Shown piece after piece: positions 32,013-46,980 of a DNA stretch of 64,000 nt. Position numbers and translations under genes: made by a program. The number at the start of each line of letters is the position of its first letter. Within the stretch, counting starts at the first letter, position 1. The stretch comes from Phosphitispora fastidiosa (GTDB lineage: Bacteria > Bacillota > Thermincolia > Thermincolales > UBA2595). Location of the stretch: NCBI RefSeq assembly GCF_019008365.1, contig NZ_JAHHUL010000010.1, positions 62,001 to 126,000 on the forward strand, read 5' to 3'. The notes under the pieces were generated by a model. It had not been told where the DNA came from. It was given only the letters and a program-made list of their open reading frames with translations, and ran no database searches.

Positions 32013-33885
32013 TGCTGTTATCGTAACAGCGGCAGTCGGTCTGGCCTACCTGATCAGGTTTGATTTCCGGGTTGAGCCCAGGTTTTTTGCCCTGCTGCCA
32101 TATGTCATGGCTGCCCATGTTATTCTGACCCAGATTTCTTTTCAATGGGTTAAGATGTACCGTCGGGTCTGGCAGTATGCCAGCATCGGGGAATTGGTGC
32201 AGGTTGCCAAGGCTGCGGCTTTCTCGGAAGCGGTATTTTTCCTCCTGCACAATATCCTGCGCCTGATTGATCCGGAGCTGGTTGTGCCGCGCTCAATTTA
32301 CCTCCTGGCCTTTGTTCTGATTATCCTGGGGGTGGGCGGGTCGCGCCTGTTCTGGAGGATGGTCCGGGATTCTTACCTGAGCCCCCGACACCGGACCGGG
32401 AATCGCCGTACCCTGATTGTGGGCGCTGGTCAGGCAGGAGTACTGGTGGCCAGGGAATTGAAGCAGTCAGGGGACTCTGACCTGTATCCGGTTGCTTTTG
32501 TGGATGACAACCCCAACAAATGGAATCTGGAGGTCTTGGGGCTTAGTGTTTTGGGCGGCTGTGAGCAGATACCGGAAATTGTCAGGGACCATGATATTGA
32601 GAAGATTATCATTGCCATTCCGTCTGCTTCCAGGTCTGAAACAGCCCGGGTTATTGAAATATGTAAGGACACCGGGGCTCAGATTAAGATGCTGCCAAAG
32701 GTGTCAGACCTGATCAGTAAGCGGTTTTCGGTAAGTATGATCAGAGAAGTCAGTGTTGAGGACCTGCTGGGGAGAGACCCGGTAAAGGTTGATTTAGAGG
32801 GAATCGCCAATTACGTTACCGGTCAGGTGGTTCTGGTTACCGGGGCCGGTGGTTCCATCGGTTCCGAGCTCTGCCGCCAGATTGCCGCGTTTGTCCCGGA
32901 GAGACTGCTTCTCCTGGGTCATGGCGAAAACAGTATTTATGATATTGAGATGGAACTGCATAAAATTTACCCCGACCAGAAGACAGCGGCCCTTATCGCC
33001 GATATCCAGGACCGGCAGCGGCTCAATGAGGTTTTTGCCGCCTACCGTCCTGTAGTGGTATTCCATGCTGCGGCCCATAAGCATGTCCCCCTGATGGAGA
33101 GCAATCCGGTGGAAGCAGTCAAAAACAATGTCCTGGGGACCCGGAATGTTGCGGAATGTGCCCATGAGTATGGAGTTTCCCGTTTTGTGATGGTATCTAC
33201 CGATAAAGCGGTCAACCCTACCAGCATCATGGGGACCACCAAGCGGGTGGCCGAGCTGTTTGTCCAGGGTCTGGGCAGGACAAGCCCGACCAAGTTTGTG
33301 GCCGTAAGGTTTGGCAATGTCCTGGGCAGCCGGGGCAGTGTGATCCCTTTATTTAAGAAACAGATTGCCGCCGGCGGCCCGGTTACCGTCACTGATCCAC
33401 ACATGGTCCGTTATTTCATGACTATTCCTGAGGCCGTCCAGTTGGTTATCCAGGCCGGAGCCTTTGCTGAGGGTGGCGAGATATTTATTCTGGATATGGG
33501 CAAACCGGTCAAAATAAACGATCTGGCCAGGGACCTAATCCGCTTGTCAGGGCTGGAACCGGATCGGGATATTGAAATAAAGTATACCGGCATTCGTCCG
33601 GGAGAAAAGCTCTATGAGGAGATTCTCACCAATGAGGAAGGAATCACTGCTACCAGGCATGACCGTATTTTTGTCGGCCAGCCGGGAGAATATTCCTGGG
33701 AAGAACTGCAGTTCATGCTGCGCAAGCTGGAAAAGGCAGCAGCCAGAAATCAGTCTGCGGAAAAGGCCGGAGAAATCAGGGAACTGCTGCAGCAGATTGT
33801 ACCCTCTTATCATTTGCCGGTTTATGAACGAGCAGCGGTTGATGAAATCCTGCAAAGCCGGAGCGAAACAGCCGCCGGCAAATAA
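31972..33885 (+). CDS. CapD/PglF-type UDP-GlcNAc 4,6-dehydratase (membrane form)
   Basis: 637 residues. Four N-terminal helices lie in residues ~8-125. A CoA-binding-like Rossmann domain follows (TLIVGAGQAGVLVARELK, ~145-165), then an extended SDR domain starting VLVTGAGGSIGSELCRQIA (~285). The SDR active site has the MxxxK version (SIMGTTKRVAELF), typical of FlaA1/PglF enzymes. They make a 4-keto-6-deoxy UDP-sugar, the substrate type for the DegT aminotransferase at 17-18 kb. ATG 31972 is chosen, with GGTGG five bases upstream, over GTG 31963. It overlaps the epimerase gene. Confidence 0.92.
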   Translation: MNYQKRILLLSFIDAVIVTAAVGLAYLIRFDFRVEPRFFALLPYVMAAHVILTQISFQWVKMYRRVWQYASIGELVQVAKAAAFSEAVFFLLHNILRLIDPELVVPRSIYLLAFVLIILGVGGSRLFWRMVRDSYLSPRHRTGNRRTLIVGAGQAGVLVARELKQSGDSDLYPVAFVDDNPNKWNLEVLGLSVLGGCEQIPEIVRDHDIEKIIIAIPSASRSETARVIEICKDTGAQIKMLPKVSDLISKRFSVSMIREVSVEDLLGRDPVKVDLEGIANYVTGQVVLVTGAGGSIGSELCRQIAAFVPERLLLLGHGENSIYDIEMELHKIYPDQKTAALIADIQDRQRLNEVFAAYRPVVVFHAAAHKHVPLMESNPVEAVKNNVLGTRNVAECAHEYGVSRFVMVSTDKAVNPTSIMGTTKRVAELFVQGLGRTSPTKFVAVRFGNVLGSRGSVIPLFKKQIAAGGPVTVTDPHMVRYFMTIPEAVQLVIQAGAFAEGGEIFILDMGKPVKINDLARDLIRLSGLEPDRDIEIKYTGIRPGEKLYEEILTNEEGITATRHDRIFVGQPGEYSWEELQFMLRKLEKAAARNQSAEKAGEIRELLQQIVPSYHLPVYERAAVDEILQSRSETAAGK

Positions 33886-33925
33886 GACCATAAAACACAG
33901 ATGAATTGACTGAAGGAGTATTTTA

Positions 33926-34777
33926 ATGCCAATATTGAAAGCTATCTGGAGGGTAACCAGGTTTATTCTCCAATCTGTACTTACCACGGGATTGATCGTG
34001 GCCCTGCTGGTGTTTTATGCCGCCCAAATTGAGCCGGACTGGGTTCAGGAAAAGGAACAACCTGTCTATATCGAGAGGCTGCCCGAGGCTTTTGAGGGGT
34101 TTAGGATAGTTCAGCTTTCCGACTTACACGGCAAATTGTTCCCGGAAAAGGGGCTGGTAAGCCGGGTTAATGCCCTTAAACCTGATTTGGTGGTAATTAC
34201 CGGTGATGTCTTTGATGAATCAAATGAAACACCCCTGGGATACGCGGAAAATGCCCTGGGCGGCTTGAATGCTCCATATGGGGTGTATTACGTCTATGGC
34301 AATAATGATACCTATCTCGGCTTGAGTAAAATTAAAAGAGCTCTGGAGCAGTTGGATATCAAAACACTCAATGACGAAAAACTGCCCTTGCAGGTCAAAG
34401 GGCAGGCTGTCAGTTTAATTGGCCTTAACTATACCCGTACCTATCAGGATACCGGAGACTTTGCAGACTTACTGCACAACGAAGGGGAAGCAGTTATTGC
34501 GCTGGCCCACCGTCCGGAAATCATTGATGCTGCCGCCAAAGCAGGGGTTGACCTGGTGCTTGCCGGGCACACCCATGGCGGGCAGATTAAGTCACCGTAT
34601 ATGCCCGATTTTTTACATATTGTTAAGAAGGGCTATGAAAAATACATGGCCGGGCTTTTTAAAGTGGGTGAAACCCAGATGTATGTTAACCGGGGGCTGG
34701 GTGTAAATAATATTCCCCTGCGTTTCCTCACCAGGCCGGAGATAACGGTGATTACCCTACATGCGGAAAATCAATGA
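33926..34777 (+). CDS. Membrane-anchored metallophosphoesterase (YaeI/YkuE-like)
   Basis: 283 residues. One N-terminal hydrophobic helix (~10-32) is followed by a calcineurin-like phosphoesterase domain. Metal-binding motifs are VQLSDLHGK, VVITGDVFDE, YGNNDTYLG (GNND where GNHD is usual), IALAHRPE and VLAGHTHGGQI. Homologues act on lipid or nucleotide phosphate esters; a role in recycling lipid carrier or in envelope lipids is a guess. GAAGGAG precedes ATG 33926. Its stop (TGA 34775-34777) is followed by the nucleotidyltransferase gene with no promoter visible, so it links the capsule and RiPP gene sets. Confidence 0.85.
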   Translation: MPILKAIWRVTRFILQSVLTTGLIVALLVFYAAQIEPDWVQEKEQPVYIERLPEAFEGFRIVQLSDLHGKLFPEKGLVSRVNALKPDLVVITGDVFDESNETPLGYAENALGGLNAPYGVYYVYGNNDTYLGLSKIKRALEQLDIKTLNDEKLPLQVKGQAVSLIGLNYTRTYQDTGDFADLLHNEGEAVIALAHRPEIIDAAAKAGVDLVLAGHTHGGQIKSPYMPDFLHIVKKGYEKYMAGLFKVGETQMYVNRGLGVNNIPLRFLTRPEITVITLHAENQ

Positions 34778-34812
34778 TGCCGGAAACAGGGTGGCTGTGG
34801 GAGGATAATGTT

Positions 34813-35925
34813 ATGTGTGAATCAGGCCTGCTCCGGATATTCAAAATCGGTTCGCCGGTGGATGCAGATATTGCGGATTGGAATGCCGTGCTGCAGGAGG
34901 CTGGAAGGCATCAGGTTGCAGAACTGCTGGCCAAAATGGTCAAACAGGCCCCTGAAGGTGCAGTGCCTCCTGAGGTGATGGCCTCTTTAAAAAAAATATA
35001 TTCCTGGACCTTTATGGCTAACGTCTGGCGGGCCAGAGAAACAGAAAACGTCATCCTGCTGCTGCAAAAAGCCGGCATCAGGTGTATCGTCCTCAAAGGA
35101 ATACCCCTGGCTGAAAGACTTTATGGAGATATCGGGGTCAGGAATAGCTGGGATATTGACCTTTTGGTAGAAGAGGACAAACTCTGCCTGGCTGTGGCAA
35201 CACTTAAGCTGGACGGCTATCTACAGCAAAAGTTTAATGTGGAATTATTGCTTGCTGATTTAGAGCACGATATCAGAATGGAAAAGAAAACCCCCCTGGG
35301 ATCCTGCTGGGTGGAACTCCATTATAAATATACCCATCGCAAGAGCCAAAACATTGCAATGGCTGAAGTATGGGAGAGGGCAGGCAGCGGGGTCTTCGGT
35401 GACGGCAAAACGCCGGTCGGGGAGTTGGCGCCGCTAGACCTGGTACTGAGCTTATGCCTTCATTCTGCGGGGCACAATTTCAGCATTTTCAGAAATGTTC
35501 TTGATGTGGTACAGGCCATTGAGGTGGAAGGCAGTCATATTGACTGGAAGGAATTTGCCCGGATTGCCAAAAGATACGGGATTTCCTACCGAGTGTATGC
35601 CTCTCTGTATTATGCTGCCATAATGTTTCAGGCACCGGTGCCTTTATCTGTCCTTGGAGACCTGAAACCACCTGCCTATGTGTGTAATCTGCTGGCAAAG
35701 GAGTGTCTGCCCGATACTCTGCCTCAGGGGCTGAGTCCCTTAACCAGCGGGGTAGTCCGCAATGAAGGAGTTATTGGTTACTTAATGGCATCATGGCGCA
35801 AAATGTTTCCGCCAATTCTAAGAATAAAGAGCTCCTATCACATCAGTACCTTCAGGGCTCTGTTCTTCTATCCGAAGCGCCTGGTATATTTGATTGCCAA
35901 GCCGTTTGGGGTGAGAAAAAAATGA
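34813..35925 (+). CDS. Nucleotidyltransferase-family protein of the lasso locus (NTP_transf_5 type)
   Basis: 370 residues. The core shows IVLKGIPLAERLYGDIGVR followed by SWDIDLLVEE, the DxD metal pair of a pol-beta-type nucleotidyltransferase, and a helical C-terminal half. Proteins of this family are a recurrent accessory gene in Firmicute lasso peptide clusters that also have an HPr-kinase-like gene; their role there is not settled. The start is ATG 34813, with GGGAGG eight bases upstream. An in-frame ATG at 34774 overlapping the previous stop is possible. The stop overlaps the cyclase start (ATGA), so both are co-translated. Confidence 0.82.
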   Translation: MCESGLLRIFKIGSPVDADIADWNAVLQEAGRHQVAELLAKMVKQAPEGAVPPEVMASLKKIYSWTFMANVWRARETENVILLLQKAGIRCIVLKGIPLAERLYGDIGVRNSWDIDLLVEEDKLCLAVATLKLDGYLQQKFNVELLLADLEHDIRMEKKTPLGSCWVELHYKYTHRKSQNIAMAEVWERAGSGVFGDGKTPVGELAPLDLVLSLCLHSAGHNFSIFRNVLDVVQAIEVEGSHIDWKEFARIAKRYGISYRVYASLYYAAIMFQAPVPLSVLGDLKPPAYVCNLLAKECLPDTLPQGLSPLTSGVVRNEGVIGYLMASWRKMFPPILRIKSSYHISTFRALFFYPKRLVYLIAKPFGVRKK

Positions 35926-37874
35926 GCGCTATAGCCGGCATTTTTCACCTGAATGATGAACCAATAACTATTGACCATGGCCTGAAGATGATGCAGGCTT
36001 TACAGCAGTATCCTGCTGATGATGTTCAGGTATGGCATCAGCACAATATATTTCTGGGCTGTCATGCCCAGTGGATCACCCCGGAATCTGTCGGTGAACG
36101 GCTGCCTTACTATGACAGTACCAGACAGTTAGCCATTACGGCTGATGCTATTATAGATAATCGTTATGATTTGTTTGAGGCCTTGCAGGTGGAACCGGCG
36201 CTTAGAAAAGAGATGCCGGACAGTGAGTTGATTTTACTAGCTTACCAAAAGTGGGGCCAAGATGCCCCCAAGCATCTGATAGGTGATTTTGCCTTTATGA
36301 TTTGGGACGGGAAAAAGCGCCTGCTCTTTGGAGCCAGGGACTTTTCCGGAACCCGGACCCTCTATTTTTACCGCAGCCATCAGCGCTTTGCTTTCTGTAC
36401 CATCATGGAGCCTTTGTTTTCTTTACCATATGTCGCGAAAGAAATAAATGAACAGTGGCTGGCTGAATTCCTGGCTATGCCTGACATGTATGAGACTATC
36501 GACCCCTCTTCATCAGTCTTCAAAAATATAGAACAAATACCTCCTGCACATACAATTTCTGTTAGTGGCTCTACAATAAGGTTTTCCCGGTACGTCACCT
36601 TGGCCGGGGGTGAAAAATTAAATTTGAAATCAAACCAGGAATACGAAGAAGCCTTTTGCGAGGTATTCCAAAACGCGGTAACGGCGCGGATACGTACTCA
36701 CCGTCCGGTGGGCGCACATTTAAGCGGGGGCCTGGATTCGGGTTCGGCAGCCGCTTTTGCTGCCAGGGCTTTGCAAATGGAGAATAAGCAGCTGCATACC
36801 TTCAGCTATATCCCTGTAAGTGACTTTACAGATTGGACTCCCAAACACCGGTTGGCGGATGAAAGACCGTTTATGCAGTCAGTTGTCCGGCATGCAGGCA
36901 ATATTCAGGCTAATTACCTGGATTTTGCCGGTAAAAGCCCTTTATCAGAAATTGACGCTATGCTGGAAATGCTGGAGATGCCCTACAAATTTCCGGAAAA
37001 CTCCTATTGGATCAAAGGAATATATGAAGCAGCCCGGCAGGAGGGGATAGGGGTACTGCTGGACGGAGCCAGGGGCAATTTAACCATATCATGGGGCCCG
37101 GCATTGGAATACTACACAAGGCTTTTAAAGAGGCTGCACTGGTTCCGGCTTTACCGTGAAATAAATGAATACAGCAAAAACATTGGTCTTAAGAAATCAC
37201 GCGTAATGTCAGCTTTGAGAAAAAAGCTCCTGCTGTCTGTAAAACAGGGTCTGCGTTCCCGGGGTCAGGGCAATTTCCCCATATACATCAGCCCTGAACT
37301 GGCTAAACGGACTAAGGTCTTTGAAAAACTGCAGGAGCATGGTATTAGTCCTGACGGCTTTTCAAGGCAGAATGCTTATGAGACCAGGGAAACACATTTT
37401 CGGCAGTTATATTCCTGGATGGTAAACGGCACCCTTGGGTCCAAGGCTTCGCTGCATTACTCCTTATGGGAACGTGACCCGACAAATGATATCAGGGTGG
37501 TCAGCTTTTGTCTGTCGGTTCCCAAGGAGCAGCTTGTCCAAAACGGTTTGGACCGCGCACTAATCCGGAGGGCAGCGAAAAACATTCTGCCTGATAAGGT
37601 CAGGTTAAACCAGCGGGTCCGGGGTTTTCAAAGCGCTGACGGGGTACATAGAATGGCCGGTTCCTGGGATGTTTTTATCAGCGAACTGCAGCAGATGGCT
37701 GCGGACCGGACTGCCGCTGAACTGTTTGATACAGCGGTCATTAATAATGCTATTTCGGGGATCAGAGAACCGAAGCCCGAATACATTGTGGATTTTAATT
37801 TTAAGATTCTAATGCGGAGTCTGGTAGTTTACAGATTCGTTAAAAAGATGTCCGGGAAGGAGGTGGTCATATGA
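35922..37874 (+). CDS. Lasso peptide cyclase (asparagine synthetase homologue)
   Basis: 650 residues. The N-terminal ~210 residues are a class II glutamine amidotransferase-like domain starting MSAIAGIF: position 2 is Ser, not the catalytic Cys of true asparagine synthetases. Loss of that Cys is expected for lasso cyclases, which do not need ammonia. The C-terminal ATP-pyrophosphatase domain has the SGGLDSGSAAAFAARAL motif (~268). The enzyme is expected to adenylate the ring Asp side chain of the precursor and close the macrolactam with the new N-terminus. ATG 35922 overlaps the upstream stop; an in-frame extension to 35793 lies inside that gene and is rejected. The stop overlaps the precursor ATG. 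Confidence 0.9.
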   Translation: MSAIAGIFHLNDEPITIDHGLKMMQALQQYPADDVQVWHQHNIFLGCHAQWITPESVGERLPYYDSTRQLAITADAIIDNRYDLFEALQVEPALRKEMPDSELILLAYQKWGQDAPKHLIGDFAFMIWDGKKRLLFGARDFSGTRTLYFYRSHQRFAFCTIMEPLFSLPYVAKEINEQWLAEFLAMPDMYETIDPSSSVFKNIEQIPPAHTISVSGSTIRFSRYVTLAGGEKLNLKSNQEYEEAFCEVFQNAVTARIRTHRPVGAHLSGGLDSGSAAAFAARALQMENKQLHTFSYIPVSDFTDWTPKHRLADERPFMQSVVRHAGNIQANYLDFAGKSPLSEIDAMLEMLEMPYKFPENSYWIKGIYEAARQEGIGVLLDGARGNLTISWGPALEYYTRLLKRLHWFRLYREINEYSKNIGLKKSRVMSALRKKLLLSVKQGLRSRGQGNFPIYISPELAKRTKVFEKLQEHGISPDGFSRQNAYETRETHFRQLYSWMVNGTLGSKASLHYSLWERDPTNDIRVVSFCLSVPKEQLVQNGLDRALIRRAAKNILPDKVRLNQRVRGFQSADGVHRMAGSWDVFISELQQMAADRTAAELFDTAVINNAISGIREPKPEYIVDFNFKILMRSLVVYRFVKKMSGKEVVI

Positions 37875-38002
37875 AAAAGGAATGGCAAAGACCGGTAGTG
37901 GAGACTCTTGATATTGCTGAAACAATGCTCGGAACAGGGATGTCTAATATTGATTTTAGTTATTCAGATGAAGATGAAACAGTTTTTTTGCATAGCTCCT
38001 AA
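37871..38002 (+). CDS. Lasso peptide precursor, paeninodin-like
   Basis: 43 codons, ATG 37871 overlapping the cyclase stop (ATGA), with AAGGAGGTG just upstream. The likely leader is MKKEWQRPVVETLDIAETM, with a WxxP recognition motif and Thr at -2 (T18). It aligns closely with the leader of paeninodin as I recall it. The 24-residue core begins LGTGMSNID, placing Asp at core position 9 and matching the xGxGxSxxD ring of paeninodin. A Leu1-Asp9 macrolactam is therefore predicted. The tail is acidic (YSDEDE) and ends HSS; C-terminal Ser is the phosphorylation site in paeninodin-type peptides, which fits the kinase-like gene downstream. Leader cleavage and topology are predicted, not shown. Confidence 0.88.
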   Translation: MKKEWQRPVVETLDIAETMLGTGMSNIDFSYSDEDETVFLHSS

Positions 38003-38048
38003 CGGTTAATTTGCCAACCAATAATTTTGGTTAAATGTTTATATTTCT

Positions 38049-38084
38049 CCCTTATACGGGTTACCGGTATAAGGGCCCCTTTTT
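38049..38084 (+). terminator. Hairpin terminator after the lasso precursor
   Basis: CCCTTATAC (38049-38057) pairs with GTATAAGGG (38067-38075) and is followed by GCCCC and a run of five T. It lies between the precursor and the maturation genes, so read-through would be partial. That would give more precursor than enzyme transcript. Confidence 0.7.
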
Positions 38085-38117
38085 CAAAACTTGGTCTGTC
38101 CGCCTGGAGTGAGAAAA

Positions 38118-39044
38118 ATGACAACTTCTGCTGCCAAAACGGTCTATAAGGCTTTTGGATTAACTCTTCAGAGTGAAATTCCTTTTCCGGAACTGCATCA
38201 AATCTGTGGAAATGAGAATATGGCTGATGTTGTCATTGAAATTTCCGATTTAACCGGATTATGGTCGGAATATGCCCGGCAGGATGAAAAAATCATCTGC
38301 ACCAAAGAATTTGTCATGTTTCGGCTTCCCCAAGCAGTTGTCTTCTGCATCAGAGAGGGTAAAAAAATCACCGTTTCACCTCTGCGGGATTTTGATGCAG
38401 CTATGGTCAGGGTGTTTATCCTGGGAACCTGTATGGGGGCGCTGCTGCTGCAGAGGAGGGTGCTGCCGCTGCATGGGAGCGCAGTCGCTATAGCCGGCAG
38501 GGCATATGGTTTTATCGGTGATTCGGGAGCGGGGAAATCGACCCTTGCCTCAGCCATGATAAGCAGGGGATACCGGCTTCTCACTGATGATGTCTTAGCA
38601 GTAACTTTTTCTCACGAGGGCATTCCCTTGGTTATCCCGTCTTATCCGCAGCAAAAGCTGTGCCGGGAAAGCCTGAATGAGCTGGGAATGGAAGCAGGCC
38701 TTTATCGTCATATATATGATCGGGAAAACAAATATGGGATACCTGTACCTGAAGAATTTTATGCTGGGCCATTACCGTTGGCCGGCTTATTTGAACTGGT
38801 TACCACAAAAGAAGAAGGGATAGAAATCCGTCCCCTTGCAAGGCTGGAAAGACTTTACTCTCTTTATTACCAAACATACCGTAAATTTCTCATTCCCCGT
38901 CTTAATTTGATGGAATGGCATTTTAAGACCTCAACAAGCATTGCGAGCCGGATTGATTTTTTTCAGCTGCGCAGGCCGGATACCGGGTTTAGCGCTCCTC
39001 ATCTAGTATCATTGATTTTAAAAACCATAAATCAGGAGGGATAG
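38118..39044 (+). CDS. HPr-kinase-like protein 1 (lasso peptide kinase, PadeK/ThcoK type)
   Basis: 308 residues. The Walker A motif GFIGDSGAGKSTLASAM lies near residue 134, preceded by PLHGSAVAI and followed by LLTDDVLAV, the pattern of HPr kinase-like P-loop enzymes. In paeninodin-type clusters such proteins phosphorylate the C-terminal Ser of the precursor; the precursor here ends in Ser-Ser, so the same role is likely. The protein lacks the N-terminal domain of true HPr kinases. ATG 38118 is preferred over 38091 because GGAGTG lies six bases upstream. PqqD-like and B2 genes follow closely, all in one operon. Confidence 0.82.
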   Translation: MTTSAAKTVYKAFGLTLQSEIPFPELHQICGNENMADVVIEISDLTGLWSEYARQDEKIICTKEFVMFRLPQAVVFCIREGKKITVSPLRDFDAAMVRVFILGTCMGALLLQRRVLPLHGSAVAIAGRAYGFIGDSGAGKSTLASAMISRGYRLLTDDVLAVTFSHEGIPLVIPSYPQQKLCRESLNELGMEAGLYRHIYDRENKYGIPVPEEFYAGPLPLAGLFELVTTKEEGIEIRPLARLERLYSLYYQTYRKFLIPRLNLMEWHFKTSTSIASRIDFFQLRRPDTGFSAPHLVSLILKTINQEG

Positions 39045-39047
39045 CGC

Positions 39048-39356
39048 ATGAGCTCATCCACAAATATTCAATCCGGTCACACCGTCGTCCAGAGCAAGGA
39101 AAATATAGCAAGTGATATGGATGGGGAAAAAGTCATCCTCAGTGTCTCTCAGGGAAAGTACTACAATTTGGGTGAAGTCGGGGGCAGAATCTGGGATATT
39201 ATTGAGAGGCCAATTTCTGTTAAAGATTTAACTGCCGCTCTAGTGGCGGAATATGAGGTAGCCCAAGACATATGTGAAGAGCAGATAATTTCTTTTTTGG
39301 ATGATTTGCTAAAGGAAGGCTTAATAATTTCCGATAATATTATAGTGGATGAGTAG
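39048..39356 (+). CDS. PqqD-like recognition protein 1 (lasso B1)
   Basis: 102 residues. GKYYNLGEVGGRIWDII followed by an acidic helix pair is the PqqD/RRE fold pattern. In split lasso systems the B1 protein binds the YxxP leader motif and delivers the precursor to the B2 protease. ATG 39048 has CAGGAGG upstream and lies three bases after the kinase-like gene. The gene order kinase-like, B1, B2 is as in paeninodin-type clusters, which supports this assignment over the other two PqqD paralogues nearby. Confidence 0.87.
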   Translation: MSSSTNIQSGHTVVQSKENIASDMDGEKVILSVSQGKYYNLGEVGGRIWDIIERPISVKDLTAALVAEYEVAQDICEEQIISFLDDLLKEGLIISDNIIVDE

Positions 39357-39364
39357 GAAAACAA

Positions 39365-39820
39365 ATGGGATTTGCAAAAAGGGTAAGGCGATTTATTTAT
39401 TTGCATAGAAAGACTCAGCTCTTATTTGTCGAGGCCTGTATTTATCTGGGCTGGGCGCGTTTTCTGGTATATCTGCCCTTCTCATGGGTTGCTCCCTATC
39501 TGGGGGTGCAGATGCGGGAGACCCCTTCCGGTATGGAGCGGGCGCATACAAATTCTATCAGGAATGTCCATCACGCCATCAGGGTCATCAGCCGTCATAC
39601 CTTCTGGGAAAGCACCTGCCTGGTCAGGGCCATAGCTGCTCTGAAAATGCTGCAGAGAAGAAAAATTGCCGGCACCCTTTACCTGGGAACAGCTAAAGAC
39701 GGAAACGGCAGGCTTATTGCTCATGCCTGGCTCCGCAGCGGCCCATTCTATCTAACAGGAGCAGAAGAAATGGAGAAGTTTACGGTTGTTGGGAAAATTT
39801 CGCCAAAGATAACTATCTGA
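39365..39820 (+). CDS. Lasso peptide leader protease (B2, transglutaminase-like)
   Basis: 151 residues, normal for a stand-alone B2 protein. The catalytic Cys is in WESTCLVRAIAALKML (Cys85), and the His is in IAHAWL (His120). The third catalytic residue of the Cys-His-Asp triad is not obvious in the FYLTGAEE stretch that follows. The enzyme removes the leader after the Thr at -2, freeing the amine that the cyclase uses. ATG 39365 is eight bases after the B1 gene. The assignment is firm from the CLVRA motif and the neighbours. Confidence 0.88.
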   Translation: MGFAKRVRRFIYLHRKTQLLFVEACIYLGWARFLVYLPFSWVAPYLGVQMRETPSGMERAHTNSIRNVHHAIRVISRHTFWESTCLVRAIAALKMLQRRKIAGTLYLGTAKDGNGRLIAHAWLRSGPFYLTGAEEMEKFTVVGKISPKITI

Positions 39821-39841
39821 GACAGAAGGCAGGAGATTGAG

Positions 39842-40108
39842 ATGAGAATAAAAGAAGGCTATCTTGTCAGAGAAATTGCCGATTGTCATATCGTTGTTCC
39901 CATTGGTGACAGGGTCATAGACTTCAAAGGAATTATGACCTTAAATGACACCGGTTATTTTATCTGGAAATGTCTCTCTGAGGATATTGCTTATGCTCAA
40001 TTACTGTCAGCTATTCTTGATGCATATGAGATTGATGAGGCCACAGCCAGGGCCGATCTTGATGAATTTCTGGAGAATGCCAGGCAAAGCGGGGTTCTTG
40101 AGGAATGA
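39842..40108 (+). CDS. PqqD-like recognition protein 2
   Basis: 88 residues with FKGIMTLNDTGYFIWKCL and an acidic, helical C-terminus, the PqqD/RRE pattern. Its stop codon overlaps the start of the radical SAM gene (ATGA), so it probably serves that enzyme by binding the leader of precursor 2 (41363-41536). GCAGGAG precedes ATG 39842. It is distinct in sequence from the lasso B1 protein encoded 500 bp upstream. The pairing with the radical SAM enzyme is inferred from overlap. Confidence 0.83.
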   Translation: MRIKEGYLVREIADCHIVVPIGDRVIDFKGIMTLNDTGYFIWKCLSEDIAYAQLLSAILDAYEIDEATARADLDEFLENARQSGVLEE

Positions 40109-41256
40109 GCGCTGAAATTAAGAAAAATAACAATGAGCTGGCGCAAAAGTGGGAAAAGTCGGAGATTACCCTGGCCGGATATGCGGCACAGAGGCATGTT
40201 CCCTTGGGCGGCACCTTTGAATTAACCCCGCGATGCAACCTGAGCTGCAAGATGTGTTACGTCAGGCTGGATAACCGGCAGATGGAGCAGATAGGCAGAG
40301 AGAGAACGGCAGCTGAATGGATTGCCCTGGCCAAAGAGGCCGTCAAGGCCGGGACGTTGAATTTGCTGGTTACCGGGGGGGAGCCCCTGCTGCGGGAGGA
40401 TTTTGCCGAGATATATACCGCCCTGACGATGATGGGCTTTGTGATTACGTTAAATACCAATGCTACCCTGATAACCCCGGAGATACTCAAGCTATTTAAG
40501 AAATACCCGCCCACGGCAACAAATGTGACCTTATATGGGGCTGGCCCGCAGACGTATCAGTCAGTTTGCGGCAATCCGGAAGCCTTTGACGCCACTGTCA
40601 GAGGTCTGGAAATGCTCACAGAGGTTGCCACGGCGCTGGAAGTCCGCACTACCTTCATCCGTGACAATATGCATGAATTGGATGCCCTGCGTGCCATAGC
40701 CAACAGATACACCAAACGCTTTGGGATTAATGTAACGGTGAATAAGGCTGTGCGCGGAGCATGTTCTGATGTGGAAGGCTGCCGGCTGACACCGGCTCAG
40801 ATGTTTGATCTTGATGAGGCTAATGCGGCATACTACCGGGCGCTTAACAGTGACACGGAAGCTGCACTTGAAAGGAATATGGAGACAGATAACTTTGTGC
40901 AGGTAAAGGAATACGGGTTTGACCTGCCACCCAAAATCATTACCTGCCTGGCGGCAAAATCCATGTACTGGATAACCTGGGATGGCAAAATGCTGCCCTG
41001 TGGTTCATTTGTCACTCCCTTTACCCTGCCATTTGAAGAGGGTTTCCGGCAGGCTTGGGACCGCCTGCCAACCCTGTTTGAAGACATATTACTTCCGGAG
41101 GAATGCCAAAAATGCGAATATGCCAATGGCAGATGTGCCAACTGTCCGGCCATTCTGCAAACGGAAACCGGGTCTTTTCACCGGATTTCTCCATATATTT
41201 GTGAGGTCGCCAAAGAGAGAGCAAAACGGTCTGAGAAATATTCAAGAATTTTGTGA
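40105..41256 (+). CDS. Radical SAM/SPASM peptide maturase
   Basis: 383 residues. The radical SAM cluster motif is CNLSCKMC (Cys44, 48, 51), followed by LLVTGGEPLLRED for SAM binding. The C-terminal SPASM-type region has Cys residues in IITCLAAKSMYWITWDGKML, then PCGSF, CQKCEYANGRCANC and PYIC, enough for auxiliary Fe-S clusters. Enzymes of this class make thioether, C-C or ether links, or epimerise residues, in ribosomal peptides. The adjacent precursor 2 has Cys, Trp and Phe in its C-terminal half, so the bond type cannot be predicted. It is translationally coupled to PqqD-like protein 2. Confidence 0.9.
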   Translation: MSAEIKKNNNELAQKWEKSEITLAGYAAQRHVPLGGTFELTPRCNLSCKMCYVRLDNRQMEQIGRERTAAEWIALAKEAVKAGTLNLLVTGGEPLLREDFAEIYTALTMMGFVITLNTNATLITPEILKLFKKYPPTATNVTLYGAGPQTYQSVCGNPEAFDATVRGLEMLTEVATALEVRTTFIRDNMHELDALRAIANRYTKRFGINVTVNKAVRGACSDVEGCRLTPAQMFDLDEANAAYYRALNSDTEAALERNMETDNFVQVKEYGFDLPPKIITCLAAKSMYWITWDGKMLPCGSFVTPFTLPFEEGFRQAWDRLPTLFEDILLPEECQKCEYANGRCANCPAILQTETGSFHRISPYICEVAKERAKRSEKYSRIL

Positions 41257-41362
41257 AAATTAATGCTGGACAAGATTCATAAAATATGGTAGTTTTATTT
41301 TAAGTAGTATTTATTGCTATTTGGTATTATATGGTATTATTTTGGCAGTGAGGTGATAAATT

Positions 41363-41536
41363 ATGAAAAAAGAATATTGCAAACCTGAGCTTGATGTGAA
41401 AGCCTATGCCCAATTCGAAAATGTTTTCACCAAATGTAATAAAGGTAATGACGGACCACAAAAATGTTCGTTTATTCCCGGTTGGCCACCCAATGATGAA
41501 GAGTGGGCAGCTTTTGGCGCTAATGCAGGTTCATAA
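41363..41536 (+). CDS. Candidate RiPP precursor 2 (Cys-containing, radical SAM-associated)
   Basis: 57 codons, ATG 41363 with GAGGTGAT upstream, TAA at 41534-41536. The leader starts MKKEYCKPELDVKAYAQFE, carrying the same YxKPxL motif as the lasso leader. The C-terminal half has Cys25 and Cys35, then FIPGW, EEWAAFG and a small-residue tail ending NAGS. The gene lies just after the PqqD/radical SAM pair and is followed at once by a terminator, the same layout as the lasso precursor. I do not recognise the core from a characterised product. Sactipeptide, ranthipeptide or aromatic-crosslink chemistry are all possible. Confidence 0.75.
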   Translation: MKKEYCKPELDVKAYAQFENVFTKCNKGNDGPQKCSFIPGWPPNDEEWAAFGANAGS

Positions 41537-41546
41537 TTACAGCCAG

Positions 41547-41574
41547 GCACACAATTGTGTGCTTCTTTTCTTTT
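41547..41574 (+). terminator. Terminator after precursor 2
   Basis: A perfect 16-bp palindrome GCACACAATTGTGTGC (41547-41562) followed by TTCTTTTCTTTT. It lies 10 bp after the precursor stop codon and ahead of the second kinase-like gene. Confidence 0.7.
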
Positions 41575-41600
41575 ACCATAGATAGTTGGGGGAGGACCTC

Positions 41601-42461
41601 TTGACGAAATACTGTATTTCTGATTTGATTCTTGAAATAGCTGCCCCGGAGTGGACTCTGCATGACAACCTTAAGCTCTTTTCGTGCCGGCACGGCGATC
41701 CTGATGTCTGCTGCAGGGTTGAATTTAAAAAACGTCCGCAGAAACCGGCGGCAGGTGTTAAGATAATTGCTGACACTCCGGGAACCATGATATATGAAGA
41801 CAAAGGACATATTCATAATTTAAGCGGTGATGACCATGATATCCCGTCATATACCGTGGCATCAGGGGACTGGTTTTCGTACACGATGTACATTGACCCT
41901 AAATTCAACAATCCTGATGATGATGAAATCGTGCACATAGTAAAAGATGGTATTTTTGCTTCGCTGCGTGGCGTCATGATTGGAAGACTGGCACAGAAAA
42001 ATGGGGTTATCATTCATTCCAGCACAATTTTATGGCAAGACCGGGGAATTATGTTTCCCGCCCCATCCGGAACCGGCAAATCTACCCATGCTCACCTCTG
42101 GCAGCAGCTATATCACACTCCCATCCTGGATGGAGATGCCGCCGCCTGCCGGATTGCAGATGGAACCCCGGTTGTCTATGGCCTTCCCTGGTGCGGCACC
42201 TCAGGAGAATTCCTTAATCAAAGCGCCCCTCTGGGAGCAATTGTCTTTTTGCAGCAGGCTGAAGCCAACAGTATCATCAAACTGGGCTTGCAGGAAAGCA
42301 TCCTCAGACTTGCCGCAAGATGTTTTCTATTGCCATGGAACGAGGGACTGATGCATCAATACCTGGATACGGTACAGGAAATTGCCGCCCGGACTGACTG
42401 TTACCTGCTTAATTGCCTGCCGGATGCTGCGGCGGTGGAGTTGGTGAAAAAGTGTCTCTAA
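41601..42461 (+). CDS. HPr-kinase-like protein 2
   Basis: 286 residues. FPAPSGTGKSTHAHLW is the Walker A motif (~154), followed by ILDGDAAACR and a GLPWCGTSGEFLN segment typical of HPr-kinase/PEPCK-like P-loop proteins in RiPP clusters. A hydrophobic/helical C-terminus follows. The start is TTG 41601, with GGGGGAGG six bases upstream; the in-frame TTG at 41586 precedes that site. Its substrate is unknown. Precursor 2 ends in Ser, so phosphorylation of that residue is one possibility, but a role in peptide handling unrelated to phosphate is not excluded. The 3' end overlaps the S26-type gene. Confidence 0.75.
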   Translation: MTKYCISDLILEIAAPEWTLHDNLKLFSCRHGDPDVCCRVEFKKRPQKPAAGVKIIADTPGTMIYEDKGHIHNLSGDDHDIPSYTVASGDWFSYTMYIDPKFNNPDDDEIVHIVKDGIFASLRGVMIGRLAQKNGVIIHSSTILWQDRGIMFPAPSGTGKSTHAHLWQQLYHTPILDGDAAACRIADGTPVVYGLPWCGTSGEFLNQSAPLGAIVFLQQAEANSIIKLGLQESILRLAARCFLLPWNEGLMHQYLDTVQEIAARTDCYLLNCLPDAAAVELVKKCL

Positions 42462-42961
42462 ATGAATTGAACCCTGGGTCTATTCCCGCAGTCCAATGGT
42501 CTGCAGCGATAATGCCGATTTTGGCTGAAGGTCATACTATGAAAATTCCCTTTGCAGGCTTAAGTATGTATCCTCTGCTGGCAGGGGGCAGAGATGAAGT
42601 GATTATTGCAGCGGTCTCGGGAAGACATCTGAAACGCGGTGATATTGTGCTGTACCAAAGAAAGGACGGCACACATGTCCTGCACCGGATTCATCATATA
42701 AACGACGCGGCGTATTATATGCTTGGGGATGCCCAGACCTGGATTGAAGGCCCTGTCCGGGAAGAAGAAGTCCTGGCAGTGGTTACGGAGATTATCAGAA
42801 AAGAAAAAAGTATCCTTTGCAGTAACTCTGGTTACCGGTTCATCTCGGAATTGTGGCTGCTGCTGCGTCCCATAAGACCACAGCTAATAAGAATTTTCGC
42901 TTACCTGCCGTTTCTGAGGAAGCTTCCGGAATTTTTATTCAGGCGCTGGGGGAATACATGA
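42452..42961 (+). CDS. S26/S24-type peptidase 1
   Basis: About 169 residues. FAGLSMYPLLAGGRDEV contains the nucleophile Ser motif (SMxP) of signal-peptidase-like enzymes. RGDIVLYQR, HVLHRIHHI and YYMLGDAQTW follow, as in SipW-like S26B peptidases where His may replace Lys. A basic, hydrophobic C-terminus (FAYLPFLRKLPEFLF) may anchor it to the membrane. It may remove a leader from one of the peptides during export. The start is probably GTG 42452, overlapping the kinase-like stop; ATG 42512 and 42539 are alternatives. The stop overlaps the ABC exporter start (ATGA). Confidence 0.75.
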   Translation: MSLNELNPGSIPAVQWSAAIMPILAEGHTMKIPFAGLSMYPLLAGGRDEVIIAAVSGRHLKRGDIVLYQRKDGTHVLHRIHHINDAAYYMLGDAQTWIEGPVREEEVLAVVTEIIRKEKSILCSNSGYRFISELWLLLRPIRPQLIRIFAYLPFLRKLPEFLFRRWGNT

Positions 42962-44646
42962 GGGGAATACTAAGAAAAACAAGAAAATTAATATCTTGGA
43001 TTAAGCCGGACCTATTGCCATACCTGCCGGCCCTGGCAGCTATTTTGTTAATTCAGGTTCTGGGGTCACTGATGAATGTGGCTACAGCCTTTGCCTCCAA
43101 AAGCATGATCGATTACGCGGTGGCCAATGAACTGCGCTTAACCGCTATTGCCGCCGGAGTTTTTGTGCTGCTGATTATCAGCAATCTTTTGCTGCAGGTA
43201 GGTGCATCACTGCTTTCGGTGCGGGTCTCCGAGTCCTTTTCCAATTCTATCCGGCAGCGCGTTTTCCGGCAGCTCCTGGGCACAGAATGGCAGTCTCTGA
43301 CTGCTTATCACAGTGGTGACCTGTTAACCCGGATGACCAGTGATGTCAGCGCTGTTACCAATACCATCGTCAATGTGATTCCGGGCATGTTTGCCTTAAC
43401 TGCCCAATTAGCGGCCTCCTTTACCGCCTTGTTATTTTTTGAGCCATATCTGGCTATTTTCGCTTTTGTTCTGGGGCCCTGCTCCGTAATCTTCAGCCGG
43501 ATCTGGGGCCGCACTCTAAAAAAGCTGCAGCTCAAGGTGCAGGAATCAGAGAGCGCTTATCGTTCCCACCTGCAGGAAGCCCTGCAGAATTTTATTGTGA
43601 TTAAGTCTTTCCGGCTGGAGAAGCATAATGAGGATACTTTACAAAGCCTGCATGAAAACAGGATGAAATGGGTTATTCAAAAGAACCGGAAAACACTGGC
43701 AGCCAACAATGTACTCGCTGTAGGCTACTGGTCGGGATATTTACTGGCCTTTGGCTGGGGCGCTTACCGGATCTCCCAGAAGGCCATCAGCTTTGGTACC
43801 ATGACTGCCTTTCTGCAGCTGGTGCAGCAGGTCCAGGGCCCTTTTGTCGGGCTGGCCAGAACGATTTCCCATCTGATTAATATGATTGCATCAATGGAGC
43901 GTTTGATAGAACTGGAGAAGATGGAAAGGGAAAAAATTACTGAGCGTGTTCCGGCAATCCGGGATGTCGGCATTGTCTTTGAGGATGTCAGCTTTGATTA
44001 TTCGCCCGAAAGACCCGTATTGTCCAATGTCACCGCACAAATACTGCCAGGTCAGCTGGTGGCTTTGGTAGGGTCTTCCGGAGAAGGCAAAACGACTCTG
44101 ATCCGGATACTGCTGGCCCTGCTTCGCCCGACTTCTGGTCAGGTATACTTCACAGACGGGAGAGGGACCAGGTATGAGGTATCGGCCGCAACCCGGGACT
44201 GGCTTACCTATGTACCCCAGGAAAACACCTTATTCAGCGGCACGATTGCGGATAATCTGCGCAGCGGCAAAACGGATGCATCAATGGCAGAGATGGAAAA
44301 GGCTTTACAGATGGCTGCCGCAGAGGACTTTATTACCAGGATGCCTGAAGGCCTGGATACGGTCATCGGAGAGCGCGGCCTGAGGCTTTCTGAGGGCCAG
44401 GCCCAAAGGATTGCCATTGCCCGGGCTTTTTTACGGGAAGCGCCGGTGATGATATTTGATGAAGCAACTTCGGCCCTGGATGTGGAAACAGAAAAGCATG
44501 TCCTGCAGGCGATGAAAGATATGGGTGATTCGCGCACCTGTTTGGTTATTACCCACAGGCTGACAGCCCTGAAAATATGTTCCCGGGCGCTTAGAATAGA
44601 AGAGGGCAGATTGGTGGAAGAAGCTTCAGTAATATGTCCTGTATAA
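42958..44646 (+). CDS. ABC exporter, fused membrane and ATPase domains
   Basis: 562 residues. Six N-terminal helices (~20-310) form a type IV exporter membrane domain. The ATPase domain has Walker A VGSSGEGKTT (~373), the Q-loop VPQENTLFSG, signature LSEGQAQR, Walker B VMIFDEAT and ITHRL. There is no N-terminal C39 peptidase domain, so leader cleavage must be done elsewhere, consistent with the B2 and S26-type proteins. It is the only exporter in the RiPP locus and may serve the lasso peptide, precursor 2 product, or both. ATG 42958 is coupled to the S26-type gene; the longer in-frame start at 42853 is rejected. Confidence 0.88.
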   Translation: MRGILRKTRKLISWIKPDLLPYLPALAAILLIQVLGSLMNVATAFASKSMIDYAVANELRLTAIAAGVFVLLIISNLLLQVGASLLSVRVSESFSNSIRQRVFRQLLGTEWQSLTAYHSGDLLTRMTSDVSAVTNTIVNVIPGMFALTAQLAASFTALLFFEPYLAIFAFVLGPCSVIFSRIWGRTLKKLQLKVQESESAYRSHLQEALQNFIVIKSFRLEKHNEDTLQSLHENRMKWVIQKNRKTLAANNVLAVGYWSGYLLAFGWGAYRISQKAISFGTMTAFLQLVQQVQGPFVGLARTISHLINMIASMERLIELEKMEREKITERVPAIRDVGIVFEDVSFDYSPERPVLSNVTAQILPGQLVALVGSSGEGKTTLIRILLALLRPTSGQVYFTDGRGTRYEVSAATRDWLTYVPQENTLFSGTIADNLRSGKTDASMAEMEKALQMAAAEDFITRMPEGLDTVIGERGLRLSEGQAQRIAIARAFLREAPVMIFDEATSALDVETEKHVLQAMKDMGDSRTCLVITHRLTALKICSRALRIEEGRLVEEASVICPV

Positions 44647-44683
44647 TGCCCTACGGAATTGTTTAAATATTTTGAAAAAAGTA

Positions 44684-44713
44684 TTGACCAGGAAATAACT
44701 TGTGTGGTAAAAT
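44684..44713 (+). promoter_or_regulatory. Promoter of the third RiPP module
   Basis: TTGACC at 44684-44689 and TAAAAT at 44708-44713, spacer 18 bp. It is the strongest promoter I see inside the RiPP locus and separates the pqqD3-kinase-precursor 3 module from the upstream operon. Confidence 0.72.
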
Positions 44714-44843
44714 TGAGCATAAATAAAAAATGAACATTTAGTTTCGGATTCAGGGACGAACCGTATATTCCAAAAAGGGATTATCGGCTGACGTCCTTTT
44801 CTTTATCTTAAAGAGTTCTTTGTCTTATAGAGGAGGTGGCTTA
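44714..44843 (+). promoter_or_regulatory. 130-nt leader with possible attenuator
   Basis: Between the promoter and the PqqD-like start lies a leader with AAAAGG (44773-44778) facing CCTTTT (44795-44800), then CTTTATCTT. The stem is short and the T run imperfect. A GGATTCAGGGACGAACC segment precedes it. I do not recognise a known riboswitch class. Confidence 0.35.
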
Positions 44844-45116
44844 ATGACTGAAGCAGCTGATTTTTGCCGGAACAGCGCCATGATTACCAGAGTAATCGAT
44901 GGGGAGGCCGTTATCATGGACCCCCAACAGGGTAAGGTGCTGGCATTAAATGAAGTGGGCTCTTTTATCTGGGAACTGCTTGATGGCGCCCGCAGCAAAG
45001 AAGACATACTTGCTGAGATATGCCGCGAATTTAATGTGGGCCGTGAAGTGGCCGCCGCGGATTTGGAGGAATTTATCGCAGTATTAAAGTCCAAAAGCTT
45101 GGTAGTTACTGCTTAA
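44844..45116 (+). CDS. PqqD-like recognition protein 3
   Basis: 90 residues: GKVLALNEVGSFIWELL and an acidic helical C-terminus, the PqqD/RRE pattern. AGAGGAGGTGG precedes ATG 44844. It heads a separate transcription unit with the third kinase-like gene and precursors 3 and 4. It likely binds their YxKP leaders. No radical SAM or cyclase is encoded in this unit, so it may act with the kinase-like protein or borrow an enzyme from the upstream operon. The fold call is firm; the partner is inferred. Confidence 0.83.
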   Translation: MTEAADFCRNSAMITRVIDGEAVIMDPQQGKVLALNEVGSFIWELLDGARSKEDILAEICREFNVGREVAAADLEEFIAVLKSKSLVVTA

Positions 45117-45151
45117 TTTACGGACAACCTACTAAGAACTGGGGGGTTAAG

Positions 45152-45988
45152 TTGAAGGAAATATTGCTTAATTTTGCTGAGATGCCTTTTGTTATCAAAA
45201 CCCATGATGATGAAATTGCCGCTTGGTTAGCGGAACACTTCTCAGGTGAAGAGGCCGAAAATGCTTCCGGGACTGAGATTGAAATTGATCCTGATTCGAC
45301 ACTGACCGTAGTTGACAGCTATCAATATCTGGGCCAACCGCCGGAAGTAGGTATAAATGGTAATCTCCTGGAATTCCGGCATCCATGCTATAAAGGCGTC
45401 TTGTCCCTTACTGAGAGGAAGGGGAAGGTATGGTTTAGCGGTCGGGAATTTCTGATAAGTTACCTCCGAACTGTGGTCACCGTCACAATTGTGAACTGCG
45501 GCGGGCTGGCTCTGCACTCTTCATGTATCCTGAGAAACGGCAAGACCTATATTTTTACCGGATATTCCGGGGCCGGCAAATCAACAGTGATCAAACTGAC
45601 TGCGGATCCCATAATCTATTCTGATGAACTGACTCTGCTGAAAAAGGACGAAAATGGTATTTTTTCCGTACATCACTCCCCTTTCCGCAGCGAGTTTCAC
45701 ACTGAGTACCTGCCTCCAACTTCAGATATAGCCGGAATATTCTTTATCACACAGGATTCTCAGGTGTTCTTGGAAAAAATGCCGGTCAAACAGGCCTTAT
45801 TCGAAATTTTGCCCATGGTTTTCTTCCCTGTTAATAAGACCCGAATTTTTGAAAGTAAGATATTTGGCCATTGTGCCGATTTGTTAAATCAGGTTCCCGT
45901 TTTCAACCTTCATTTCAGGAAGGATGATACCTTTTGGGAATGTATAGAACAGATTGGGGGCGGAGAAGTCCTAAAGAGGGAGGTGTAA
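45152..45988 (+). CDS. HPr-kinase-like protein 3
   Basis: 278 residues. ALHSSCILRNGKTYIFTGYS leads into the Walker A GYSGAGKST (~137), then IIYSDELTLL, the paired acidic motif of HPr-kinase-like proteins. The start is TTG 45152, 35 bp after the PqqD-like gene with a GGGG-rich upstream. It differs clearly from the two other kinase-like proteins in the locus. Precursor 3 follows four bases after the stop codon. Precursor 3 has Ser22 and Ser39 and precursor 4 has Ser22, so phosphorylation is possible but the substrate is unknown. Confidence 0.75.
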   Translation: MKEILLNFAEMPFVIKTHDDEIAAWLAEHFSGEEAENASGTEIEIDPDSTLTVVDSYQYLGQPPEVGINGNLLEFRHPCYKGVLSLTERKGKVWFSGREFLISYLRTVVTVTIVNCGGLALHSSCILRNGKTYIFTGYSGAGKSTVIKLTADPIIYSDELTLLKKDENGIFSVHHSPFRSEFHTEYLPPTSDIAGIFFITQDSQVFLEKMPVKQALFEILPMVFFPVNKTRIFESKIFGHCADLLNQVPVFNLHFRKDDTFWECIEQIGGGEVLKREV

Positions 45989-45992
45989 AAAA

Positions 45993-46121
45993 ATGAAACA
46001 ATATGTTAAGCCGATGATAATAACGGAGGAAGAAATTCAGTTTGAGACTCTGGTGAGCTGCCCGCTATACAAGCATGAGGGTACTGTCGGAGGCACAGGA
46101 GGCTTTAGTGGAGGAGACTAA
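45993..46121 (+). CDS. Candidate RiPP precursor 3 (Gly-rich tail)
   Basis: 42 codons, ATG 45993 with GAGGGAGGTG upstream, TAA at 46119-46121. The product starts MKQYVKPMIITEEEIQFETL, with a YxKP motif and an acidic EEEIxFET block. VSCP then precedes a tail rich in Gly: TVGGTGGFSGGD. One Cys (Cys23) marks a possible core start. It lies immediately after the kinase-like gene, and the S26-type gene starts inside its last codons. Precursor 4 has the same leader. The coding case rests on the leader, ribosome-binding site and context; the product is unrecognised. Confidence 0.7.
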   Translation: MKQYVKPMIITEEEIQFETLVSCPLYKHEGTVGGTGGFSGGD

Positions 46122-46650
46122 ACACATAGGCTGCCTGAATTCTCAGGTGAATAAGGAGCTGCCATTGGACTATCCGCTGATTTTCTGTGAAGATGTAATT
46201 AAATCAGGTAAAAACGCCTTCATGACTGCCTCAGGTGTCAGCATGTGGCCTGCGATTATCGCCGGGATGAAGGCCGAAATAGCGCCTCTTGATACAGAAC
46301 TTCCCCCAAAGGGAGCCTTGCTTCTGGTAAAAGGGGGTAATGGACTAATGGTACACCGGTATTGGGGGGTTCAATATGAAAAAAGTGTTCCCCTGATATT
46401 GACAAAAGGGGACACCAATATCTGTTTTGACCCTCCGGTTCCCCGTGATTTAGTACTGGGTCAGGTAGTGATGCTGAAACATGATTCATATGGTATCCGG
46501 AACCCGAACCGGGGATTTTGGCTGATGTTTGGCCGCCTGCTGTGTTCATCTCTATCTGTGGCAAGGGTTTGGGCCAAACTATGCCGCGTGGTTCTAAGGG
46601 TCGTCAGACGTATCGAAAACAGGCGAACAATGTCGAAACGTGCCGAATGA
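46108..46650 (+). CDS. S26/S24-type peptidase 2
   Basis: 180 residues. TASGVSMWPAIIAGMKAEIA carries the SMxP-type nucleophile motif. GALLLVKGGNGLMVHRYWG and LILTKGDTNICFDPPV continue the signal-peptidase-like core. A hydrophobic, basic C-terminus (residues ~140-180) may contact the membrane. GTG 46108 is the best start: AGGAGG at 46097-46102 lies five bases upstream, inside the end of precursor 3. An upstream in-frame ATG (46075) is rejected. The overlap means the peptidase is made with precursor 3 and suggests it processes that peptide. Confidence 0.72.
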   Translation: MEETKHIGCLNSQVNKELPLDYPLIFCEDVIKSGKNAFMTASGVSMWPAIIAGMKAEIAPLDTELPPKGALLLVKGGNGLMVHRYWGVQYEKSVPLILTKGDTNICFDPPVPRDLVLGQVVMLKHDSYGIRNPNRGFWLMFGRLLCSSLSVARVWAKLCRVVLRVVRRIENRRTMSKRAE

Positions 46651-46830
46651 AACTTATTGTATTAGTTTGTAAACAAATATAGAATATAAATATATGGAAA
46701 ATTTATTATGGACTTATTCTATTTTATTATTTGCGGAAAAGATGCAGCTATTGTGCAGCTTTTTAATTTTATTAGCAATTATTTTTGTGAAAATTCCTTA
46801 ACTTTTAGCTGATGAAGGGAGGTACGGAAA

Positions 46831-46914
46831 ATGAAAGAGTATTCCAAACCCGAGATAACCCACGAAGAGGAAATTGAGTTTGAGACTCGGATAAGTGGCA
46901 TGTTCTGCCCCTAA
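46831..46914 (+). CDS. Candidate RiPP precursor 4 (short paralogue of precursor 3)
   Basis: 27 codons, ATG 46831 with GAAGGGAGGT upstream, TAA at 46912-46914. MKEYSKPEITHEEEIEFET matches the precursor 3 leader closely, including the YxKP and EEEIxFET blocks. The tail is only RISGMFCP, with a single Cys near the end. It may be a truncated copy or a peptide whose product is very small. The 180-bp region before it is AT-rich with no clear promoter or gene. A TATAAT at 46941-46946 just after the stop may serve the next gene. Confidence 0.6.
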   Translation: MKEYSKPEITHEEEIEFETRISGMFCP

Positions 46915-46980
46915 TGCATCGTAGAAAGATTTAGCGCTTGTATAATAAGGTAATCCTTTTGTGAAGGGAGGTGAAAATTT

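Follow-up and report, generated by a model that had tools for sequence, protein, structure and literature searches.

A 64,000-nt stretch of Phosphitispora fastidiosa DNA (contig NZ_JAHHUL010000010.1, positions 62,001 to 126,000; hereafter the window) probably encodes three independent pathways for ribosomally synthesized and post-translationally modified peptides (RiPPs) with YxxP leaders, together with a candidate new family of selenoproteins. Between 34.8 and 46.9 kb (coordinates are window positions, and all genes of the locus lie on the + strand) we find a lasso cyclase, the lasso proteins B1 and B2, a PadeA-family precursor, three PqqD-type proteins, three HprK-like kinases, one radical S-adenosylmethionine (SAM)/SPASM enzyme, two S26-type peptidases, one ATP-binding cassette (ABC) exporter and four short precursor genes. 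An initial annotation had listed these same genes as three maturation modules in series with four precursors, an arrangement that is borne out here, with the closest relatives of these genes recurring elsewhere as three separate cassettes. The compound locus is real. Module 1, the lasso part, adds a member to a known kind of cluster; module 2, the radical SAM part, is an apparently undescribed cassette common to other genomes; and the third module with the candidate selenoprotein is the most unusual piece. A literature search found no description of a locus of this composition.

All four precursors carry a [Y/W]xxP-type leader motif, and YxxP is a known recognition motif of the RiPP recognition element (RRE; PMC12710340); the PqqD-type protein of each cassette would read the leader of its own precursor or precursors. 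For comparison between species we used L014, a contig of the Thermincola ferriacetica metagenome-assembled genome (MAG) G002, the closest named relative of the window genome. The genes of modules 2 and 3, small ones included, are under purifying selection between the two (ratio of nonsynonymous to synonymous substitution rates, dN/dS, 0.52 for the radical SAM precursor A2; values for the module-3 peptides A3 and A4 are in Table 1), and the small open reading frames (ORFs) are therefore real. The initial annotation had suggested searching related genomes for the same gene order, and modules 2 and 3 do co-occur in L014; it had also allowed for chance adjacency of a lasso cluster with unrelated genes. 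The locus is more than that, because the genome has three PqqD genes in total, all inside 6 kb, because the cassettes recur elsewhere, and because the small ORFs are constrained. Local duplication of the three PqqD genes is ruled out by a tree of these proteins, in which those of radical SAM cassettes form one clade (96/100) and lasso B1 proteins another (99/100), so that each groups with its own module type from other genomes; the three module-3 proteins stand together with the lasso side at an unresolved fork.

The third module, which the initial annotation described as having neither cyclase nor radical SAM enzyme and as ending at 46.9 kb, indeed has neither, but it runs on into a surface-protein gene (46981-49596), a frame that had been missed and in which a TGA is the single stop. 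Homologues of this protein, of the peptidase S26b and of the kinase K3 were surveyed in 398 genomes of the phylum. The TGA stands at the same aligned position in four of four copies from two genera, namely the window, L014:16809-19400 and two paralogues in L018 (3071-5581 and 5743-7281), a contig from a third genus of the family Thermincolaceae. Between the window and L014, dN/dS is 0.29-0.38 on either side of the TGA, and 0.32 over the 73 aligned codons from the TGA to the window's first in-frame start. In all four copies the TGA is followed after 12 nt by a hairpin with a 6-bp stem and a 5-nt loop of the form xGUxU, with 18 nt to the loop. The formate dehydrogenases of the same genomes have an in-frame TGA and a hairpin of equal offset, stem length and loop length, their loop being mostly GGUCU (the two sets were compared by fixed offset; a joint MAFFT alignment misaligned them). 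In loop, stem and spacing the surface-protein hairpins fit the published model of the bacterial selenocysteine insertion sequence (bSECIS; PMC13188914), with local energies of -8.4, -8.4, -8.3 and -7.3 kcal/mol against a model limit of -7.5, and -10.7 to -15.4 over 60-nt stretches; an Rfam search of the region gave no match. The genome also has SelB, tRNA-Sec(UCA) and selenocysteine (Sec) formate dehydrogenases. Since the TGA is conserved, its flanks are constrained, a bSECIS-like hairpin follows it and SelB and tRNA-Sec are present, it is likely read as Sec, at residue 191 of a candidate selenoprotein. A structure predicted for the N-terminal part (mean predicted local distance difference test score, pLDDT, 58) shows a beta first domain, with the TGA residue where the last strand of that domain begins.

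A candidate promoter, TTGACC-18-TAAAAT at 44684, precedes module 3. In this maturase-less module, the PqqD-type protein D3, K3 and S26b would act on tiny FETxxS..C peptides. Six such peptides from two genera share an MKxYxKP-like leader and the FETxxS..C core and little else. Given a set that is limited to RRE, kinase and peptidase, the simplest and most likely product would be a peptide phosphorylated at the conserved Ser and freed of its leader. Borrowing of the neighboring radical SAM enzyme is not needed, given that the genome of L018, a contig with module 3, contains no relative of this enzyme at 1e-30. The module was recovered only in Thermincolaceae, and in L018 without the other two modules. 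Relatives of S26b occur in 3/398 genomes, all of this family; strong relatives of K3 occur in the same three, and weak ones in four more. A search of solved structures gave no match for S26b, whose start is probably the TTG at 46165 after AAGGAG (the longest ORF begins at 46075), and matched the kinase profile weakly to HPr kinases. The surface protein is tied to module 3 because each of the two TGA proteins in L018 comes after a short peptide gene. This third cassette would be paired with a surface protein needing TGA read-through, most likely as Sec. A dispersed repeat of ~110-260 bp, ~80% identical, lies after the surface-protein gene in the sister genome (L014:19501-19763) and at 487-752 and 15998-16307 in the window.

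Table 1. Features of the locus in window coordinates
Feature	Position	Strand	Evidence or remark
Metallophosphoesterase	33926..34777	+	PF00149; left flank, 3' end is left border of lasso block
Lasso block, 5,060 bp, absent from L014	34762..39821		blastn against L014
Nucleotidyltransferase NTP_transf_5, putative PsmN-like role	34774..35925	+	PF14907 E 4e-44
Lasso cyclase (Asn-synthase type)	35922..37874	+	NF033535 E 2e-125; 59% identical to L019 cyclase
Lasso precursor A1	37871..38002	+	NF033524 43.5 bits, cut-off 27
HprK-like kinase K1 (PadeK type)	38118..39044	+	PF07475 E 3e-7; P-loop and His conserved
Lasso B1 (PqqD-type RRE, D1)	39048..39356	+	NF033536 126.8 bits, cut-off 80; clade with L019 B1
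Lasso B2 protease	39365..39820	+	NF033537 102.8 bits, cut-off 33
PqqD-type RRE D2	39842..40108	+	PF05402; clade with radical SAM cassette D proteins, 96/100
Radical SAM/SPASM maturase	40105..41256	+	PF04055; CxxxCxxC and seven SPASM Cys invariant
Precursor A2, YCKP leader, two conserved core Cys	41363..41536	+	Relatives in L014, L015, L016, L032
HprK-like kinase K2	41601..42461	+	Alignment with HprK-like proteins of other cassettes; P-loop and His invariant
S26-type peptidase S26a, Ser-His (Sec11-like) motif SMYP ... HRI ... GD	42452..42961	+	TIGR02228 E 1.5e-8, below cut-off
ABC exporter of radical SAM cassette	42958..44646	+	PF00664/PF00005; 60-66% identical to other radical SAM cassette exporters
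PqqD-type RRE D3	44844..45116	+	PF05402 E 2e-21
HprK-like kinase K3	45152..45988	+	ScmC-like E 2e-11, below cut-off; P-loop and His conserved
Short peptide A3, YVKP leader, FETLVSC	45993..46121	+	dN/dS 0.16 against L014
S26-type peptidase S26b	46165..46650	+	TIGR02228 E 3.5e-5; relatives only in G002 and G003
Short peptide A4, YSKP leader, FETRISGMFC	46831..46914	+	dN/dS 0.21 against L014; same motif in L018
Surface protein	46981..49596	+	Signal peptide, N-terminal beta domain, in-frame TGA, SdrD_B domains, C-terminal membrane segment
In-frame TGA, candidate Sec codon	47551..47553	+	Same codon in L014 and two L018 copies
bSECIS-like hairpin GAAGUA-AGUUU-UACUUC	47566..47582	+	12 nt after TGA; geometry of Sec formate dehydrogenase hairpins

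The radical SAM cassette recurs across Clostridia, often within exopolysaccharide loci. Its full order (PqqD-type protein, radical SAM enzyme, precursor, kinase, S26 peptidase, ABC exporter) is present in L033, L068, L070, L071 and L074, and partial or rearranged forms in L015, L032, L034 and L035; those of L032-L035, L068, L070, L071 and L074 are without a lasso cluster. Many of these cassettes, that of the window included, adjoin genes for Wzc/Wzz, UDP-glucose dehydrogenase, GalU or a sugar epimerase, identified by reading translations. Directly upstream in the window, at the place of the relatives' polysaccharide genes, lies a low-GC island (18000-30000; 31-39% against ~50%). In L015, 1.7 kb upstream of the cassette and behind Wzz/Wzc-like genes, lies a short gene (L015:154-297) whose product has a leader of YxxP-like form (MKKEWINP...); it is possibly a lasso-like precursor and does not match NF033524. 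In the radical SAM enzyme, C44, C48, C51 and the seven C-terminal (SPASM) Cys are invariant in seven relatives, and none of the NCBIfam models of named radical SAM RiPP families is matched above cut-off (best 98.5 of 500 bits). The literature search found no description of a cassette joining radical SAM enzyme, kinase, S26 peptidase and exporter.

Precursors of radical SAM cassettes share an MKxYxKP leader followed by the motif F[AE]..[ST]..C, which is found in 13/17 of them and in 6/6 module-3 peptides, against 4-19% in shuffles. D2 would present A2 to the radical SAM/SPASM enzyme, which would modify the two-Cys core, thioether chemistry being the leading guess; K2 would phosphorylate a Ser/Thr, the membrane S26-type peptidase would remove the leader, and the ABC protein would export the product. 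We infer the thioethers, the phosphorylation and the cleavage by S26a from family membership and conserved position. Signal peptidases, S26 and S24 go unmentioned in a review of leader proteases (PMC10885120), so an S26 enzyme in this role would be new.

The putative roles in the lasso block follow from known families. The precursor, MKKEWQRPVVETLDIAETM-LGTGMSNIDFSYSDEDETVFLHSS, has the predicted core LGTGMSNIDFSYSDEDETVFLHSS and ends in ...HSS. It shares Thr at -2, Leu1, Gly2, Ile8 and Asp9 with the precursor of a stand-alone lasso cluster in L019, from another genus of the same family, and a nine-residue Leu1-Asp9 macrolactam ring is expected on this ground. Both paeninodin-family precursors have the C-terminal Ser that PadeK requires. 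PadeK phosphorylates such a Ser, and hexoses are added to it, once phosphorylated, by PsmN or with its help (PMC9266682). K1, whose PF07475 score is slightly under the gathering threshold, would likewise phosphorylate the C-terminal Ser of the Leu1-Asp9 macrolactam, and the nucleotidyltransferase would perhaps decorate the phosphorylated lasso peptide further. Directly 3' of both A1 (38030-38085) and A2 (41545-41564) lies a hairpin with a T-rich stretch, an attenuation-like feature that would keep precursor levels high.

The initial annotation proposed that the radical SAM module had been inserted into a lasso operon with the one exporter still shared, and the radical SAM genes do lie between lasso B2 and the sole ABC exporter, all on one strand. 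This history is nevertheless very unlikely. Mapped by blastn, L014 4560-9717 matches window 29603-34761 and L014 9718-19533 matches window 39822-49713, so that the lasso block is cleanly bordered on both sides: in the sister genome the metallophosphoesterase is followed directly by the radical SAM cassette with this exporter, then by module 3 and the surface protein, and the stretch from nucleotidyltransferase to B2 is missing. With the same order minus the lasso block, it is the lasso block that is the movable or variable piece. The window exporter, moreover, is 60-66% identical to the exporters of stand-alone radical SAM cassettes (L033, L068, L070, L071) against 27% for that of the stand-alone lasso cluster L019, which has its own; by this comparison it belongs to the radical SAM cassette. 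Within the 5,060-bp lasso block there is no ABC exporter, the nearest being the radical SAM type. We judge two histories of the lasso cassette to be evenly balanced: ancestral presence at this site followed by loss from G002 and from most of G001, or gain by the window lineage. G001 holds fragments in window order, including 57 residues of the nucleotidyltransferase just before D2 (79% identical to the window's), and over most of module 2 G002 is the nearer of the two to the window. On the other side, between the G001 nucleotidyltransferase fragment and D2 lies a stretch similar to the end of the L014 metallophosphoesterase, a resemblance that suits other histories, and G001, a MAG, is patchy and has several deletions. 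The position of the fragment leans towards loss in the other genomes, as read from this patchy MAG. The G001 pieces themselves (L016:9021-11865) are short and co-linear, covering epimerase, nucleotidyltransferase, D2, radical SAM enzyme, A2, K2 and surface protein with several deletions between, and appear to be a decaying or misassembled copy of the window locus.

Three pathways plus a candidate selenoprotein is the reading we prefer, and several observations weigh against it. The best model for the cyclase, NF033535, gives 420 bits, under the curated 525-bit cut-off, with the identity to the L019 cyclase spanning its length; the S26 peptidase also scores under curated cut-offs. A C-terminal Ser/Thr is not general in radical SAM cassette precursors, leaving the target of K2 unsure, and it was rejected as a general kinase target there, relatives ending also in E, A, Y, F, K and P. 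Just three genomes are known to have S26b and the TGA protein. Only one stem pair of the hairpin is compensated between the genera, the sole covariation support for it; no homologue with Cys at the Sec position, or without the TGA, was found among the 398 genomes, and a Foldseek search with the N-terminal domain found no match below E 0.001. Module 3, being without cyclase, B2 and radical SAM enzyme, could be taken for a decayed lasso or radical SAM cluster with no function of its own; this is improbable, as purifying selection acts on all five of its genes, the two for peptides among them, and another genus (L018) has the set with no radical SAM cassette. Somewhat less remote, though still unlikely, is that the TGA is an ordinary stop, making the gene two proteins, a pseudogene or a case of nonspecific read-through. 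The missing Cys homologue would fit, and Sec in an adhesin-like protein is unusual. However, the identical TGA persists in four copies across two genera with both sides constrained, the hairpin geometry is identical to that of the Sec formate dehydrogenases, and after the TGA there is no signal peptide and no in-frame start common to the copies, on which account reinitiation was rejected.

Each part of the locus can be set beside a known system. The lasso block resembles the paeninodin and pseudomycoidin clusters (PadeK, PsmK/PsmN) in cyclase, precursor, kinase, B1, B2, nucleotidyltransferase, C-terminal Ser and [Y/W]xxP leader, but has no exporter of its own, places the nucleotidyltransferase first, overlapping the metallophosphoesterase stop, and is followed by two RiPP cassettes. 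With the SynChlorMet cassette (ScmC, ScmD, ScmE, ScmF) the window shares HprK-like, PqqD-like and radical SAM/SPASM proteins; its scores, however, are far under the cut-offs (ScmC 44/125, ScmD 45/100, ScmE 79/400 bits), and where SynChlorMet has two radical SAM proteins the window has one, plus an S26 peptidase, an exporter and YxKP precursors. The pairing of HprK-like kinase and PqqD-like protein is also that of the HPr-rel-A kinase/PqqD systems, again with window scores far under cut-offs. Sactipeptide systems with a discrete RRE (StsB/StsC) are alike in SPASM radical SAM enzyme, discrete RRE, W/YxxP-type leader and Cys core; the window adds a kinase and an S26 peptidase, matches the StsB model weakly, and its thioethers are putative. 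The surface protein has the in-frame UGA, bSECIS-model hairpin, SelB and tRNA-Sec of bacterial selenoproteins, whereas its family, for which no Cys homologue is known, is not in a 2026 inventory of 119 bacterial selenoprotein families, which holds no adhesin/SdrD-type family (PMC13188914).

These results define a portable cassette of radical SAM enzyme, HprK-like kinase, S26 peptidase and exporter that is recurrent in Clostridia and suggests a peptide chemistry combining a kinase with thioethers, along with a leader protease of the signal-peptidase type. They also point to an adhesin-like surface protein, an unusual kind of candidate selenoprotein family, that is linked genetically to short peptides with RRE-type leaders; TGA read-through conceals this protein from standard annotation, where it appears as two fragments. 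More speculatively, and with low confidence, module 3 may be a RiPP pathway of RRE, HprK-like kinase and a membrane protease resembling signal peptidases, whose tiny Ser/Cys peptides act on, or become attached to, the Sec-bearing surface protein encoded with them; if true, both the selenoprotein family and the system linking peptides to a surface protein would be new.

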